From NCBI RefSeq assembly GCF_003752025.1, contig NZ_RJKR01000005.1, forward strand, positions 186,001 through 250,000: a stretch of 64,000 nucleotides of DNA, given 5' to 3'. Origin of the DNA: Curtobacterium sp. PhB115. GTDB taxonomy: Bacteria > Actinomycetota > Actinomycetes > Actinomycetales > Microbacteriaceae. Made by a program: the position numbers and the translations under genes. The notes beneath the pieces were generated by a model, which searched no databases, was not told where the DNA came from, and was given only the letters and a program-made list of their open reading frames with translations. Numbering within the stretch: position 1 is the stretch's first letter; every line of letters starts with the position of its first letter. Below are positions 28,749-53,008 of the stretch, piece after piece.

Positions 28749-28763
28749 GCGTTCACTCCGCCG

Positions 28764-28967
28764 ACCGGTCACGACACGTCGTCCCGCGCCACGCGAGCGG
28801 TCGCAGACCGATCCACCGGTCACGACACGTCGTCCCGCGCCACGCGAGCGGTCGCAGACCGTTCGACCGGTCACGACACGTCGTCCCGCGCCACGCGAGC
28901 GGTCGCAGACCGTTCGACCGGTCACGACACGTCGTCCCGCGCCACGCGAGCGGTCGCAGACCGTCGC
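28764..28967. repeat. Four tandem copies of a 51-bp repeat
   Basis: Units start at 28764, 28815, 28866 and 28917 with exact 51-bp spacing. Each contains CACGACACGTCGTCCCGCGC and GCGAGCGGTCGCAGACCG. Only the last few bases vary. The block is bounded by two near-identical ~28-bp words ending GAGCCGTGACCGC (about 28672-28699 and 29006-29033). The 531-bp gap between proB and proA holds no gene. Frames run through it because the unit is a multiple of three. Confidence 0.95.
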
Positions 28968-32633: not shown

Positions 32634-33307
32634 CGCGGGGTCGGGCGCGGGCGCACCGTGCGAGGGTCCGCACGGCGCACGTCCGCACCGCACGGCAGCT
32701 CGCACGGTGCGACGCGAGCTCACGAGCGCGGCCGCACCGTGCGAGGGTCCGCACAGTGTGCGAGGCGAAACGCGCCGCACCCTGCGACGCCGGCTCACGG
32801 GCGCGGGCGCACCGTGCGAGGGTCCGCACAGTGTGCGAGGCGAAACGCGTCGCACCGTGCACGCAACCTCGCACACTGCGGGGCGCGGCACACGGTCCGG
32901 CGGCCCGGCACGCGGTCCGGCAGCGCCAGCACCCGGAGCTCGGCCTGGAGGCACGGCGCACGTCCGCAGCGCACGGCACCTCGCACGGTGCGACGCGGCC
33001 CACCGTGCGCGGGCGCACCGTGCGAGGTTCCGCACAGTGTGCGAGGCGAAACGCGTCGCACCATGCACGGAACCTCGCACACTGCGTTCGCGGCACAGCG
33101 CCAGCGCACCGCGCGAGGCCTGGAGGCACGGCGCACGTCCGCACCGCACGGAACCTCGCACGGTGCGACGCCGGCTCACGGGCGCGGGCGCACCGTGCGA
33201 GGGTCCGCACAGTGTGCGAGGCGAAACGCGCCGCACCGTGCGCGGAACCTCGCACACTGCGGTCGCAGCACGGCACAGCGCCGGCGCGGCACACGGTCCA
33301 GCGGCGC
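32634..33307. repeat. Cluster of alternating inverted GTGCGA modules, gene-free
   Basis: The 674-bp gap between two convergent genes is filled by two module types in the order B-A-A-B-A-B-A. A (~73 bp; about 32733 hybrid, 32808-32880, 33014-33086, 33189-33261) contains GTGCGAGGTTCCGCACAG (GGGTCC in some copies), then GTGCGAGGCGAAACGCG and CGGAACCTCGCACACTGCG, so it folds on itself. B (about 32671-32715, 32943-32996, 33118-33170) contains GGCGCACGTCCGC and CCTCGCACGGTGCGACG, whose end is complementary to the start of the next A. GTGCGA or its complement occurs 20 times. No coding frame is convincing. Confidence 0.9.
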
Positions 33308-47411: not shown

Positions 47412-49031
47412 ATGATCTTGGACTCAGTACAGAAAACCGTCGCCGCCGTCGCGAGCGCCACCGCCGTCGTCCTCGTCCTCGCCGCGTGCAGCGGTGCGGG
47501 GACGACCACCACGAGCAGCGAGCCGGTCAACGGCGGGACCCTGACGTACGCCTCCGGCGACGCCGAGCCCACCTGCCTCGACCCGCACGTCGGCGGCAAC
47601 TACCCGCAGGCGCTCCTGGCGACGCAGTACATCGAGGAGCTCGTCGGGCTCGAGGACGGCAAGCCGACCCCCGAGCTCGCGACGAAGTGGACCACGAGCG
47701 ACGACGGGAAGACCCTGACGTTCACGCTCCGCGACGATGTCTCCTTCACCGACGGCACCCCGTTCGACGCCGCCGCCGTCGTGGCGAACATCGAGCACGT
47801 GCAGGACCCGGCCACCGCATCGAGCACCGGGTACCTCGCGCTGCAGTCGATCACGAAGGCGACCGCCACCGACGACCACACCGTGACGCTCACCCTGAGC
47901 CGTCCGGACAGCGCGCTGCTCGAGTCGTTCTCACAGCCCTGGGTCGGCATGGAGTCCCCGAAGGCCCTCGAGCGCAAGCAGGCGACGAACTGCGAGTCGC
48001 CCGTCGGCACCGGCCCCTTCGAGGTCACCGGCTGGAAGCACGGCGACCGCGTCACCCTGACGAAGAACAGCGAGTACTGGGGGAAGACGAAGCCGCGCCT
48101 GTCCGGGATCACGTGGCGCTTCCTGCCCGACTCGACCTCGCGGTACGCCGCGCTGCAGTCCGGACAGGTCGACGTGATCGACAACGCCCAGCCCGACCAG
48201 CTCAAGGCGGCGTCGTCGAAGGGGTCGATCCGCGACCTCGACGCCCCACGCCCCGGCGCCTCGAACCGGCTCGAGCTCAACTCCGGCCACGGCGTCTTCC
48301 GCGACCAGGCGGTCCGCCAGGCGTTCATCGCCGGAGCCGAGATCGACCCCGGCCTGCAGTCGCTGTTCCTCGGCACCGCGAAGCGCTCGTACTCGGTGCT
48401 CTCCAGTGCCGAACCGCTGGCCTACTCGGAGAAGAGCCGGTTCGACTACTCGCCGAAGAAGGCGGAGCAGCTGCTCGACGACGCCGGGTGGAAGGTCGGG
48501 TCCGACGGCATCCGCGAGAAGGACGGCCAGCAGCTCACCGTGACGTTCCCGGTCTCGACGAACCAGTCGGTCCCCGCCGAACGCAGCCTGTTCCAGCAGA
48601 TCCAGGCATCCGAGAAGGCCGTCGGCTTCAAGGTGGTGCTCGACGAGCTCGACCTCTCCAGCTGGTACGCCGCCCTCGCTGCGAACGAGTACGACGTCGT
48701 CAGCGCCCCGTACACGAAGGTCGGCCCGGACGTCCTGCGCATCCTGTACGACAGCGCGAGCATCACGCCGGCACCGTCCGGGTACTTCGCGAACCTCGCC
48801 CAGCTCGACGACCCGGCGCTCGACGACCTGCTCGAACAAGCCGCCCGGACCTCCGACGCCGACGAGCGCGCCGACCTCTACGAGCAGGCGCAGAAGACGA
48901 TCCTGGCGAGCGACACCGTGCTGCCGCTCTACGACCAGCAGAACCACTTCCTGGTGCGGTCCGCCGTGCACGGCATCTCCACCACCTCGGTGTCCACGCC
49001 GTGGTTCGGCACGGCCTGGATCGACCGCTGA
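47412..49031 (+). CDS. Peptide ABC transporter substrate-binding lipoprotein
   Basis: The 539-residue family 5 solute-binding protein has a lipoprotein signal peptide with lipobox LAAC (Cys26). The motif GGTLTYASGDAEPTCLDPHV opens the mature part, followed by LRDDVSFTDGTPFDAAAVVANIE (two parts). Members bind oligopeptides, nickel or similar ligands. The cysteine in EPTCLDPH and another in TNCESPVG may pair. First gene of a four-gene import operon; the permease starts 6 bp after the stop. Confidence 0.93.
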   Translation: MILDSVQKTVAAVASATAVVLVLAACSGAGTTTTSSEPVNGGTLTYASGDAEPTCLDPHVGGNYPQALLATQYIEELVGLEDGKPTPELATKWTTSDDGKTLTFTLRDDVSFTDGTPFDAAAVVANIEHVQDPATASSTGYLALQSITKATATDDHTVTLTLSRPDSALLESFSQPWVGMESPKALERKQATNCESPVGTGPFEVTGWKHGDRVTLTKNSEYWGKTKPRLSGITWRFLPDSTSRYAALQSGQVDVIDNAQPDQLKAASSKGSIRDLDAPRPGASNRLELNSGHGVFRDQAVRQAFIAGAEIDPGLQSLFLGTAKRSYSVLSSAEPLAYSEKSRFDYSPKKAEQLLDDAGWKVGSDGIREKDGQQLTVTFPVSTNQSVPAERSLFQQIQASEKAVGFKVVLDELDLSSWYAALAANEYDVVSAPYTKVGPDVLRILYDSASITPAPSGYFANLAQLDDPALDDLLEQAARTSDADERADLYEQAQKTILASDTVLPLYDQQNHFLVRSAVHGISTTSVSTPWFGTAWIDR

Positions 49032-49036
49032 CGCAG

Positions 49037-50110
49037 ATGGGCTGGGTCTGGTGGGCCGTCCGACGGCTCGCGGGCGGCATCGGCGTGCTCTGGGCCGTCG
49101 CGACGATCGTGTTCGTCGCGATCCGGCTCATCCCCGGCGACCCGGCCCTCGCGATCCTCGGCGGGCCGGGGTCCCAGGCCTCGGCGGAGGCCGTCGCCCA
49201 GGTCCGGCACGAGTACGGCCTCGACCAACCGGTGCTCGTGCAGTACGCGGTGTTCCTCGGCCGGCTCGCGACCGGGCAGCTCGGGGACTCGTACGCGTTC
49301 CGCACCCCGGTCGCGACGCTCCTCGGCCAGCAGCTGCCCGTCACGCTGACCCTGGCGGTGGCCGGGCTGCTCGTCGCCTGGGTCCTGGCGATCGTCGCCG
49401 CCTGGTGGTCGACGCAGCGCGGACGCGTCGCCGCGGGGCTGACCAGCGCGTTGAGCGTGACGGCGAGCGTGATGCCGCACTTCTGGCTCGGCAGCGTGCT
49501 CATCGTCGTGTTCGCCAGCGCACTCGGATGGGTGCCCGCGGTCAGTGACGGCACCGCACGGGGCTGGGTGCTGCCGGTGGTCACCGTCGCCGTCCCGGTC
49601 GCGGGGTACCTCGCCGAGACGGTGCGGGACGGGGTCGTCGACGCGCAGCGGTCCGCGTTCGCGCTCGCCGCGCGGGGGCGTGGTGAGACGCGCTTCGGGC
49701 TCTTCTGGCGGCACCTGCTCCGGCACGCCGCCCTGCCCGGGATCGCACTGTCCGCCTGGGCGTTCGGGTCCCTCGTGTCCGGGGCGGTCGTCGTCGAGTC
49801 GGTGTTCGCGCTGCCCGGCATCGGCCGCGCCCTCGTCACCGCGGTGACGCAGCGGGACATGCCCCTCGTCGCGGGCATCGCCCTGGTCTCGGCTGCGGCG
49901 TACGTCGTCGTGCTCGCGGTCGCCGACCTCGTCGAACGGGCGGTCGACCCGCGCAGCGGGGGCGCAGGCAGCGGAGGCCCGCGCACCGGGGGCGCACGCA
50001 CCGGAGGCCCGCGCACCGGACGCCCACGCCTCGGACGCCTACGCACCGGTGGCGCGCGCACGCGAGCCGACCAGCGCCGTGGGCCCAGCCACGAGGCGGA
50101 GGCACGATGA
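49037..50110 (+). CDS. Peptide ABC transporter permease (DppB type)
   Basis: The 357-residue membrane protein has the DppB opening (IVFVAIRLIPGDPA), six helices and an EAA loop (AFALAARGRGETRFGLFWRH). The last ~45 residues are an unusual Gly/Arg/Thr-rich repeat tail (GGPRTGGARTGGPRTGRPR), encoded by a 12-15-bp DNA repeat at 49962-50060. It is not part of the fold. It overlaps the next permease by 4 bp. Confidence 0.92.
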   Translation: MGWVWWAVRRLAGGIGVLWAVATIVFVAIRLIPGDPALAILGGPGSQASAEAVAQVRHEYGLDQPVLVQYAVFLGRLATGQLGDSYAFRTPVATLLGQQLPVTLTLAVAGLLVAWVLAIVAAWWSTQRGRVAAGLTSALSVTASVMPHFWLGSVLIVVFASALGWVPAVSDGTARGWVLPVVTVAVPVAGYLAETVRDGVVDAQRSAFALAARGRGETRFGLFWRHLLRHAALPGIALSAWAFGSLVSGAVVVESVFALPGIGRALVTAVTQRDMPLVAGIALVSAAAYVVVLAVADLVERAVDPRSGGAGSGGPRTGGARTGGPRTGRPRLGRLRTGGARTRADQRRGPSHEAEAR

Positions 50111-51000
50111 GCGGCATCGCCGAGCCGAGCCTCCAGGCCGGTGGTCCCAGCCGCCCGCCCGTCGCAGGCCTCCGACACCCCCACGCGCTCACGGTGCCCG
50201 CCGTCGTGGCGGGGGTCGTCGTCCTGCTCGCCGTCGTCGCGGCGGCCTGGCCAGCGGTCCTCGGCGGCGCCGACCCACTCGCGGTGCACCCAGCCGATGC
50301 CCTCCAGCCCCCCGGTGCCGCACACCCGTTCGGCACCGACGAGTCCGGGCGCGACGTCCTGGCGCGGGTCGTCGCCGGCACCCGCGCATCTCTGGTGGTC
50401 GGCGTCGTCGCGACCCTGGTCGGCGGCGGGACCGGCGTCGTGCTCGGGGTCGTCGCCGGCCTCGGTGCGGGTGCCGGTCGGGTCGGCAGGCTCCTCGACG
50501 CGGTGATCGGCCGCGTCACCGAGGTCGCCTTCGCCCTGCCGCTGCTCCTCGTCGCCCTCGTCGTCATCGCCGTCACCGGCCCCGGTCCGGTCCCCGCGAT
50601 GCTCGCCGTCGGGTTCGCCACCGCGCCCGGCTACGCCCGGATCGTCCGGGGGCTCGTCCGTGCGGCGCGCGGATCCCAGGTGGTCGAGACGGCCGTCGTC
50701 CTCGGCCGCTCCCCCGCCCGCATCCTGCTCCGACACGTCCTGCCGACCGCGCTCTGGCCCGTCGTCGCCGTCGGCACGCTCGGCGTCGGGCAGGCGATCG
50801 TGTGGGCCTCGGCACTGAGCTACCTCGGCGTCGGCACGCCACCACCCGCTCCCGAGTGGGGCGCGATGCTCGCCGACGGCCGGACCTACCTGCAGACCGC
50901 ACCGTGGATGAGCACCTTCCCCGGGCTCGCCATCGTGGTGCTCGCGACCGCCGTCACCGTGCTCGGTCGCGCGATCCGACGAACAGGAGTCACGCGATGA
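50107..51000 (+). CDS. Peptide ABC transporter permease (DppC type)
   Basis: The 297-residue protein has the DppC features: HPFGTDESGRDVLARVVAG, about six membrane helices and an EAA loop (ETAVVLGRSPARILLRHVLP). It pairs with the DppB-type permease. It overlaps both neighbours by 4 bp (ATGA). Confidence 0.94.
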   Translation: MSGIAEPSLQAGGPSRPPVAGLRHPHALTVPAVVAGVVVLLAVVAAAWPAVLGGADPLAVHPADALQPPGAAHPFGTDESGRDVLARVVAGTRASLVVGVVATLVGGGTGVVLGVVAGLGAGAGRVGRLLDAVIGRVTEVAFALPLLLVALVVIAVTGPGPVPAMLAVGFATAPGYARIVRGLVRAARGSQVVETAVVLGRSPARILLRHVLPTALWPVVAVGTLGVGQAIVWASALSYLGVGTPPPAPEWGAMLADGRTYLQTAPWMSTFPGLAIVVLATAVTVLGRAIRRTGVTR

Positions 51001-52820
51001 CCCGCGTCCTCGACATCCGCGGCCTCACGGTCGCCATCGACCGCGTCCCGATCGTGCACGGCGTCGACCTGCACGTCGAGGCCGGCGAGTGCGTCGCCCT
51101 CGTCGGCGCCTCCGGGTCCGGCAAGACCGTCACCGCTCGTGCCGCGCTCGGCCTGTCCGCACCCGGCTCCGCCGTGCGCGCGGAGGCACTCACCGTCGCC
51201 GGCCTCGACGTCCGCGCGTTCTCCGACCGGCGCTGGCGGCAGGTGCGCGGGTCGCGGGTCGGCTACGTCGGCCAGGAGGCACTGGGCGCCTTGGACCCGC
51301 TGCGTCCGGTCGGGCGCGAGGTCGCCGACACCCTCCGCCTCCACACCGAGATGGGTGCGGCTGAGCGCGTGTCCGCCGTGCGTGATGCCCTGCGTGCGGT
51401 CGGGCTCGACCCGGCCATCGCCACCGACGGCCGACTCGCGGGGACCCTGTCCGGCGGGATGCGGCAGCGGGCACTCATCGCCGCGGCGACCGTCGGGTCC
51501 CCAGCGCTCCTCGTCGCGGACGAGCCGACGACTGCGCTGGACGCCGGGATCGCGGTCACCGTGATGGAGCAGCTCCGGTCGGCGCAGCAGCGGGGAGCGG
51601 GGCTGCTCGTGATCACGCACGACCTCGGGTTGGTGGCGGGGTGGGCCGATCGCGTGGCGGTCGTCCACGAGGGCCGGATTGTCGAGCAGGGACCGGTGGA
51701 GTCGGTGCTGCGGGAGCCGCAGCACGAGGCGACGCGGGCGCTGGTGCGTGCGGCGTCGCACGGTGCGAGGGCGGGCGGGGCTGGTGGCGCGCCGGGGTCG
51801 CACGGTGCGAGGCCGGGCGAGGCTGGTGGCGCGCCGGGGTCGCACGGTGCGAGGGCGGGCGGGGCGGCGGCCGCAGTGTGCGAGGTTCCGAGCACTGTGC
51901 GAGGCGCCGCGGGTCGCACGGAGCGCGGAACCTCGCACAGTGCGGAGTCCGGTGCGGAGTCGGGTGCGGAGCCGACCTCGCACGGTGCGACGGGAGTCCT
52001 CGTGGCGGAGGGGCTCTCGCGCGCCTTCGACGGGGTGCCCGCGGTCGACCGGGTGTCGTTCGAGCTCGATCGGGGCCGGGTCCTCGGGGTGATCGGGGCC
52101 TCCGGGTCCGGCAAGACCACGCTGGCGCGCATGCTCCTCGGCCTCGAGACCCCCGACGCCGGCACCGTGACCCTGGCCGGCGAACCGTGGGCACCACTGC
52201 CCGAGCGCGACCGGCGACCCCGGCGGCACCGGCTGGCCGCCGTCGTGCAGGACCCCGGCGCCACGTTCGACGAGCGGTGGTCGGTGGAGCGGGTGCTCGC
52301 CGATGCGCTGTCACGGGGCGACGAACGCCGGGCGCGCGGATCCCTCGCCGATCGGGTGGACGCAGCCCTCCGACAGGTCGACCTCGATCCGGCACTGCGC
52401 TCGCGGTCCCCGCTCACGTTGTCGGGCGGACAGCGGCAACGGCTCGCGATCGCCCGGGCACTGGCGACCGACCCCGAGGTGATCGTGCTCGACGAGCCGG
52501 TCACCGCGCTCGACGCCACCGTGCAGGACGCCGTGCTGTCGCTGCTCGAACGGCTCCGTGACGAGACCGGTGTGGCGATGGTGTTCGTGTCGCACGACCT
52601 GCGTGCCGTGCGACGGATGGCCGACGACGTGCTCGTCCTGCACGAGGGCGCGGTCGTCGAGCAGGGCTCAGCGACCCAGGTGTTCGAGCACCCGGCACAC
52701 CCGGTGACCGCACACCTGCTCCAGGCCGCCGAGCAGCTCGCCGCGGGCCCACTGGCTGTGGCCGGCACGGCGATCGGCACCCCGCCCGGCACCGCGACCG
52801 GCACCGACGTTTCGCGCTGA
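50997..52820 (+). CDS. Fused double ATPase of the peptide ABC transporter
   Basis: The 607-residue protein joins two ATPase domains of the DppD and DppF kinds. The first has Walker A GASGSGKT (37-44), signature LSGGMRQRA and Walker B LLVADEPTT. The second has Walker A GASGSGKT (~367), signature LSGGQRQRLA and Walker B VIVLDEPVT. Both have the H-loop (VITHDLG, VSHDLRA), so both should be active. The linker (~254-333) is Gly/Ala/Ser-rich low complexity with SHGARAGG repeats. It is encoded by the same repeat module as the cluster at 32.6-33.3 kb. The stop codon lies in a hairpin. Confidence 0.93.
   Translation: MTRVLDIRGLTVAIDRVPIVHGVDLHVEAGECVALVGASGSGKTVTARAALGLSAPGSAVRAEALTVAGLDVRAFSDRRWRQVRGSRVGYVGQEALGALDPLRPVGREVADTLRLHTEMGAAERVSAVRDALRAVGLDPAIATDGRLAGTLSGGMRQRALIAAATVGSPALLVADEPTTALDAGIAVTVMEQLRSAQQRGAGLLVITHDLGLVAGWADRVAVVHEGRIVEQGPVESVLREPQHEATRALVRAASHGARAGGAGGAPGSHGARPGEAGGAPGSHGARAGGAAAAVCEVPSTVRGAAGRTERGTSHSAESGAESGAEPTSHGATGVLVAEGLSRAFDGVPAVDRVSFELDRGRVLGVIGASGSGKTTLARMLLGLETPDAGTVTLAGEPWAPLPERDRRPRRHRLAAVVQDPGATFDERWSVERVLADALSRGDERRARGSLADRVDAALRQVDLDPALRSRSPLTLSGGQRQRLAIARALATDPEVIVLDEPVTALDATVQDAVLSLLERLRDETGVAMVFVSHDLRAVRRMADDVLVLHEGAVVEQGSATQVFEHPAHPVTAHLLQAAEQLAAGPLAVAGTAIGTPPGTATGTDVSR
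51757..51995 (+). repeat. GTGCGA repeat module inside the ABC ATPase gene
   Basis: Three exact-period 42-bp repeats start at 51757, 51799 and 51841, each beginning TCGCACGGTGCGA. They are followed by a full A-type module (GTGCGAGGTTCCG ... CGGAACCTCGCACAGTGCGG, about 51884-51950) and a B-type end CCTCGCACGGTGCGACG (~51981). The reading frame stays open across the ~240 bp and GTGCGA/TCGCAC occurs 12 times. Confidence 0.92.
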
Positions 52821-52859
52821 GCGACACTTCACGGGGCGCGGGACCCGTGAATTGTCGCT
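52820..52859. terminator. Hairpin at the end of the ABC operon
   Basis: AGCGACACTTCACGGG and CCCGTGAATTGTCGCT pair with one mismatch. The first base is the last base of the ATPase stop codon. Confidence 0.7.
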
Positions 52860-52868
52860 GAGCGCGAA

Positions 52869-52928
52869 GCGCGGCCGAGCGGTGCGCGGCCGAGCGGTGC
52901 GCGGCCGAGCGAAGCGCGGCCGAGCGGC
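52869..52928. repeat. Four tandem 15-bp repeats
   Basis: GCGCGGCCGAGCGGT at 52869, 52884, 52899 and 52914, with changes in the last two bases of units three and four. The gap is intergenic. Confidence 0.92.
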
Positions 52929-52965
52929 TCGCAGGCGGGCCCGCACCACGGCCCTGAACGTGACC

Positions 52966-53008
52966 GGAGGCCCGGCGCGCGTCCGTGGCGGACGTGCACC
53001 GGGCCTCC
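52966..53008 (-). terminator. Hairpin after the MHS gene, family 2 palindrome (copy 2)
   Basis: GGAGGCCCGG and CCGGGCCTCC enclose an inner stem (GCGCGTCCG/CGGACGTGC). It lies 20 bp after the stop of the minus-strand transporter gene. The outer core is shared with 28692-28748. Confidence 0.7.

Follow-up and report, generated by a model that had tools for sequence, protein, structure and literature searches.

A REP-like hairpin family of Curtobacterium with one copy translated in frame within a transporter ATPase

The transporter operon and its composite linker

The window considered here – the whole stretch of DNA analysed, 64,000 nucleotides in length, from a 3.97-Mb genome of the genus Curtobacterium (family Microbacteriaceae) – contains an operon for a peptide-type transporter. 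Its genes for a substrate-binding protein (47412–49031; PF00496) and a permease (50107–51000; PF00528), both on the forward strand, are followed downstream, on the same strand, by the gene for a fused DppD/DppF-type ABC ATPase (50997–52820). This protein of 607 amino acids has two ABC_tran domains (Pfam PF00005, two stretches) and an oligo_HPY tail that is matched by E-value, without a stretch of its own; its best named matches are Curtobacterium records, with 62–85% identity in the best segment. Another gene called in the same operon (49037–50110) has a low-complexity 3' coding end made of tandem 15/30-bp repeats (49948–50061; CGCACCGGAGGCGCA).

The two ATPase domains are joined by a linker of 255 nt, or 85 residues (51741–51995, forward strand), which varies more in length than any other inner part of the protein in an alignment of 23 orthologues (alignment A4). 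Three in-frame 42-bp tandem repeats (51751–51876, forward strand; 100, 93 and 83% identity to the first copy), each with an CGCACGGTGCGA palindrome read as SHGAR, are followed by a 61-bp core hairpin (GTGCGAGGTT...AACCTCGCAC; 51878–51938), by 12-bp tandem repeats on the forward strand (51940–51971) and by a closing 12-bp satellite palindrome, again CGCACGGTGCGA (51979–51990). A sequence-only reading of this DNA had described the linker as three 42-bp repeats with one full inverted module and a B-type end, set within a preserved reading frame; this make-up is borne out in its main points, and the frame 50997–52820 is uninterrupted, linker repeats included.

The arms of the core are complementary at 22 of 25 positions (a different search reports a 37-nt arm pair at 84%), its predicted RNA minimum free energy is -43.4 kcal/mol, and a covariance model derived from 84 dispersed copies gives it 74.8 bits. 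The same reading had identified it with a module lying 18 kb away, correctly so: an intergenic array at 32642–33271 holds three 61-bp cores of the same family (32814–32874, 33020–33080 and 33195–33255). An Rfam search of 50900–53000 returned only matches far below gathering scores. Elsewhere in the window, four nearly perfect 51-bp tandem repeats (28762–28964; 98% matches) look unrelated to the GTGCGAGG module.

A dispersed hairpin family that favours gene 3' ends

The members of this family share one layout – GTGCGAGG, a variable stretch, GTG, a loop, CAC, a variable stretch and CCTCGCAC – with a total length of 60 or 61 bp. The inner GTG/CAC (positions 20–22 and 40–42), which formed no part of the search pattern, is invariant in all 84 aligned dispersed 61-bp copies (alignment A2, 84 of 130 references) and paired in 124–125 of the 126 copies of a larger set. 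For the motif CGCACNGTGCGA, the window yields 20 strand matches where 0.27 are expected, and the whole genome 302, compared with three for the reversed control; one site is often counted on both strands because the motif is near-palindromic. The spaced pattern GTGCGAGGT-N42/43-ACCTCGCAC was located 66 times genome-wide, and its control not once. Chance is ruled out as the origin of the repeat matches by these counts, and the proposed spread of the module over the genome finds ample support, further copies being abundant.

Across the genus, a version of the pattern with a wider gap finds the family in 32 of 66 genomes (control 0), and the covariance model, built without linker copies, has matches in 35 and none in 31. 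Four of the former (G034, G056, G060 and G064) have two strand hits each and the other 31 have from 8 to 82, where both strands of a palindrome count and where the maximum equals the number of candidates scored, so that the top counts are to be read as at least 82. Intergenic copies of the hairpin occur in roughly half of the species of Curtobacterium, and one transport-protein gene holds it in frame as well. In a scan of Microbacteriaceae, the 60/61-bp pattern appears in five of ten Curtobacterium genomes and in none of the 388 sampled genomes of other genera.

Many cores have a companion: a 17-bp satellite palindrome, CCTCGCACNGTGCGAGG, sought with up to three mismatches, lies within 40 nt of 78 of the 121 dispersed cores, against 43 of 2000 random 40-mers. 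The modules of the genome studied here (G000) often stand in tandem, at a spacing of about 110–205 bp (e.g. at loci L128, L167, L292, L302 and L306); most sampled loci of G008, G003 and G018 have a single module. At two loci of G003 (L197 and L204), modules lie less than 50 bases from assembly contig ends, so that the family may break short-read assemblies and its copy numbers may be undercounted.

Membership in such a family bears directly on the idea of a local origin, namely that a GC-rich, slippage-prone linker formed the palindrome by itself. The tandem repeats within the linker, together with the repetitive Gly/Ala linkers of several species, would suit this idea; the 61-bp length, the invariant GTG at positions 20–22 and the dozens of family copies per genome do not. 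Family membership refutes it, and we find it scarcely credible.

Counting copies in genes against copies in gaps also speaks against a spread into genes generally, of the kind known from Rickettsia palindromic elements (RPEs), which the sequence-only reading had suspected. Of the 59 copies examined in the genome studied here, a set that takes its strict copies from the earlier contigs, a single one falls in a gene, and this is the linker copy; none of the 73 copies sampled from four other genomes is, in a sample drawn from strict-pattern listings that miss the linker copies of those four genomes; and when one locus per genome (the first listed place) is taken, one of 38 rows falls in a gene, which is once more this linker (L116, a G015 sequence). 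Among gaps of the five sampled genomes, those with a module are convergent in 38 cases, co-directional in 50 and divergent in nine (n = 97), and those without a module at the same loci 8, 44 and 28 (n = 80), so that divergent gaps are depleted (9/97 vs 28/80; Fisher p 3e-5), with genes called by a simple codon-based caller written for this analysis. In the co-directional gaps, the module is closer to the upstream stop than to the downstream start in 36 of 50, at a median distance of 55.5 nt from the stop codon. The dispersed copies favour gene 3' ends, a REP-like behaviour, and their most likely role would be as hairpins at the 3' ends of transcripts.

One convergent gap was compared across 30 genomes, the best-matching loci of the 66, with the same gene caller. 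It holds a module in 16 of 22 carriers of the family, 28–75 nt past the left stop, and in none of eight non-carriers. Without the module the gap is mostly shorter (21–139 nt vs 111–212 nt), and most boundaries seen on comparing species are blurred. One satellite palindrome remains in G020 when it is set against its relative G018, which fits deletion between satellites.

The family is a REP-like hairpin specific to Curtobacterium, without a known transposase. It shares with REP elements the form of dispersed stable hairpins, the location in convergent or co-directional gaps near gene 3' ends, the frequent clustering and, as far as the accessible part of one account goes, the occasional copy inside a gene (PMC3733652). 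That part discusses REPs inside genes as perhaps neutral in linkers or loops and describes different REPs at about the same recB site in two Xanthomonas species; palindromic repeats within genes outside Rickettsia are thus already published there (PMC3733652). The Curtobacterium hairpin differs from REP elements in its near-fixed 60/61 bp, in having two boxes per arm and no GTAG tag – GTAG abuts 0 and CGTC eight of the 121 cores, in raw counts – and in having its coding copy in one gene common to many species rather than in assorted genes. At an E-value of 0.001, the RAYT domain Y1_Tnp (PF01797) is matched in none of the 66 Curtobacterium genomes, the one studied here included, in a search whose control matched in 5 of 14 known genomes; a RAYT-driven REPIN was rejected on this basis.

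Other known systems are likewise only partly similar. In RPEs, too, a palindrome is translated in frame within a protein-coding gene that is left intact; these elements are about 150 bp long and, in the portion of the source available, genes of various kinds contain nearly half of the 44 copies (PMC10969869), whereas in the Curtobacterium genome this holds for a single one of the 59 examined. MITEs are similarly short and numerous, with inverted-repeat ends, but no target duplication abuts the Curtobacterium core – direct repeats there are at chance level in 121 copies for k = 2, 3, 4, 5, 6, 8 and 9 – and no parent transposon was found: the 25 commonest of 117 Pfam families near modules (82 of 112 neighbour genes) include no transposase, though one may be hidden among the other 92 families. 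Intrinsic terminators combine a GC hairpin with a U-tract, whereas a T-rich tract (at least five T in a window of 8 nt, sought up to 15 nt away on both sides) accompanies none of 121 copies; the reading of the family as canonical terminators was rejected accordingly.

A literature search covering few subscription journals found neither an actinobacterial report of palindromic repeats inside genes nor a paper on this family. The case is real and unusual: the family is REP-like, did not turn up in the literature searched and has one coding copy that retains its DNA pattern. A Curtobacterium genome note, in the part accessible, mentions 13 potential CRISPRs (PMC4698388); it is our guess that these might be module arrays.

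The linker copy across species: one insertion or many

A search with the ATPase gives some match in all 66 genomes, paralogues included. The orthologous stretch was taken for 61 of them (all but G022, G049, G057, G061 and G065), and 60 linkers were parsed, that of G026 being unparsable and that of G002 doubtful. The tree includes neither of these two, and the comparison of carriers omits G026 and counts G002 as a non-carrier. The core is present in the linkers of 21 of the 60 species read. Among the 28 carriers defined by the strict pattern, the linker holds the core in 21, a satellite palindrome only in five and nothing in two, while neither core nor satellite occurs in any linker of the 32 species without strict dispersed copies, three of which (G034, G056 and G060) have one residual dispersed copy each by the covariance model (two strand hits). 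A satellite lies within 60 nt of the linker core, on at least one side, in 13 of the 21 species, a distance wider than the 40 nt used with the control above.

Linkers with the core measure 114–258 nt (median 165; 21 linkers) and those without it 66–273 nt (median 90; 39 linkers). The orthologue comparison thus upholds part of what the sequence-only reading expected: element-free linkers occupy the same place and are mostly shorter, rather than being of equal length and unrelated sequence in all relatives, but no clean empty site with a target duplication was found.

A single open frame spans both domains in element-free species, as it does in Frigoribacterium and Cryobacterium, which means that the element neither fused nor split the gene; the suggestion that it had fused or separated dppD- and dppF-like genes falls, and the element is ruled out as the cause of the fusion. 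The same fact weighs on another possibility: that the dispersed family consists of canonical terminators, and that the linker copy was captured as one from a gap that once separated dppD and dppF. Such a history would accord with the short distance from stop codons to copies in co-directional gaps, and with the two family-free species (G011 and G062) that hold another, unrelated inverted repeat in the convergent gap described above, as judged by eye. Set against the open frame in module-free species and other genera, and the missing T-rich tracts, it is very improbable.

The linker is best explained as a composite copy, made up of a 61-bp core and satellite palindromes of the REP-like family, which leaves the number of arrivals to be weighed. 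On a tree of the ATPase domains (59 rows), the distribution of the core takes nine changes to explain, where shuffled labels require 17.4 and none of 500 shuffles goes so low, and at least eight of these gains or losses are forced by well-supported branches; a single gain therefore implies many losses, or exchange between species. Nine changes might instead reflect recurrent insertion, with the linker as a preferred landing site and a separate arrival in every clade, drawn from the dispersed copies of that clade. Such recurrence would fit the 60-bp cores in the linkers of three species, G003, G015 and G047, that are not sisters on the tree, as well as the likeness of linker arms to each lineage's own dispersed family (see below).

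Other features of the linker cores tell against it. In all 21 species they occupy one and the same site and codon phase, which is informative because the frames of dispersed 61-bp copies are mostly open: stops occur in only 4, 8 and 18 of 252 readings in the three frames (about 93% or more open), and in 11, 2 and 1 of 42 readings for the dispersed 60-bp copies. The loops (positions 23–39) of linker copies from different clades are 0.64 identical, compared with 0.51 among dispersed copies, a background that rises to 0.555 when the better orientation of each copy is chosen, and the value for eight clade representatives is reached by five of 5000 random sets; as linker copies share one frame, this loop likeness may reflect protein constraint. 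Arm identity is similar between linkers (0.572) and between linkers and dispersed copies (0.577). Finally, no other gene is hit among the copies sampled. Recurrent insertion is, in our judgement, unlikely while deserving serious attention, and one insertion with losses is about twice as credible.

A single in-frame arrival of the composite copy in the linker, early in the history of the carrier lineages, would then have been followed by loss of the core in some of them, plausibly via deletion between satellites; the five carriers that keep a satellite only may be the products of such losses. The linker tolerates changes of both length and sequence, so that a translated copy appears harmless, and we take the coding copy to be probably a passenger.

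Persistence of the coding hairpin at the DNA level

The linker copy keeps its hairpin shape though the protein changes. Codon usage already points to the DNA: the valine codon GTT, which makes up 0.5% of 9852 valine codons (this region, 16 sequences), stands at positions 8–10 in 15 of the 18 linker 61-bp cores, with at least one member in seven of eight clades, and the glycine codon GGA, 4.9% of glycines, stands at positions 50–52 in 13 of the 18. Paired changes agree. Cells with a both-sided pair change number 28 in the linker cores against 11.9 after shuffling (0/500), and the covariation score is 0.171 against 0.090 (0/500), sliding the partners giving 0.061 at most; pairs with both-sided change (9 vs 6.7; 43/500 shuffles) and pair types (20 vs 18.8; 193/500) do not stand out, so that two of five measures are unremarkable, and the counts can be inflated by relatedness of the rows. 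Dispersed copies have 118 cells with both-sided change, against 74.3 (0/500).

Close relatives illustrate the pattern. G053 and G033 differ at three positions; two of these, 9 and 53, pair with each other and have changed jointly, keeping the pair and altering both amino acids. Between G008 and G016 the only differences are at positions 45, 47 and 53 of the right arm, each of which decides arm pairing, and either state may be the older. In the variable arm part, a linker's own arms match at 8.1 of 11 positions and arms swapped between clades at 6.0.

These features could mean that the core in the gene is itself selected, as a DNA site or an RNA hairpin – a protein-binding site, for instance, or a means of tuning translation between the domains. 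The boxes GTGCGAGG and the inner GTG/CAC are indeed kept at the DNA level together with a codon that is very rare, and hairpins in linkers pair as well as those between genes (arm complementarity 21.2 vs 20.5 out of 25; only the linkers had been filtered for at least 15 matches). However, the core is absent from all 32 non-carrier linkers and from seven of 28 carriers, and dozens of intergenic loci maintain this DNA pattern as well; selection of the core for a role in this gene strikes us as improbable.

The coding arms also resemble the dispersed arms of their own lineage. The consensus of dispersed arms is GTTCCGCGCAC in G000 and G018 and GTTCCGTACTCC in G008 and G003, the seven copies of G007 being unlike both types. 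Linker arms are closer to the dispersed copies of their own group in five of five cases in clades E/F and four of four in clade H, the groups with samples of their own (clades A, B, C, D and G have none). Over the whole core, the linkers of G000, G008 and G018 are nearest on average to their own dispersed copies, whereas that of G007 is at 0.606 to its own (n = 7) and 0.637 to those of G008. With up to two mismatches, the clade-B linker arm has 26, 22, 9 and 32 matches in four clade-B genomes, linker included; elsewhere it has none in G018 or G020, two in G000, one in G048, two in G051 and 7 to 13 in five clade-H genomes. Arms that track lineage indicate either genome-wide concerted evolution that includes the coding copy or a separate insertion in each clade, from which likeness to the own family would also follow.

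On the reading that we prefer, to which we give slightly better than even chances, a REP-like hairpin was long ago inserted in frame into a permissive linker and has since been rewritten together with its family. The coding arms would have changed along with the dispersed copies rather than by selection on the protein, the candidate routes being template switching between arms, conversion and recognition by some factor. In their accessible parts, two studies report that template switching rewrites inverted repeats of coding genes in yeast (PMC8604942) and preserves RNA stems (PMC8794818); as described there, the resulting repeats resemble the present case in their homogenised arms and in multi-base, amino-acid-changing substitutions in coding DNA (PMC8604942, PMC8794818). 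The Curtobacterium copy differs in belonging to a dispersed family with nearly invariant boxes. Such boxes, together with a lineage-wide arm type, point to sequence-specific recognition or copying, template switching explaining the paired changes only.

Since the coding copy cannot end its own transcript and nonetheless keeps the family pattern, the rare codon and lineage-like arms, it argues for copying or recognition at the DNA level, and not only for selection at RNA ends. A stronger proposal, which we offer tentatively and consider rather doubtful as it stands, is that a trans-acting, non-RAYT system working on DNA recognises the four-box 60/61-bp hairpin and rewrites its arms genome-wide, dragging the coding copy along and thereby changing the protein; loss of the system would let nearly all copies vanish, the coding one included. 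With the coding copy, nature provides a test of how such dispersed hairpins persist in bacteria, and the sharp split between carriers and non-carriers within one genus, in which no known REP transposase was found, opens a way of searching for the responsible gene by way of sister species.

Directly at the end of the ATPase gene, a different inverted repeat (TTTCGCGCTGAGCGACA...TGTCGCTGAGCGCGAA; 52810–52868) spans the stop codon. The 17-mer TGTCGCTGAGCGCGAAA of such an arm occurs in 22 of the 66 genomes of the genus, ten times in the genome studied here, the window copy having a different last base, and a relative of this inverted repeat is present in one orthologous gap of G011 and G062. Immediately behind it lie about four copies of a 15-bp tandem repeat, GCGCGGCCGAGCGGT (52869–52927).
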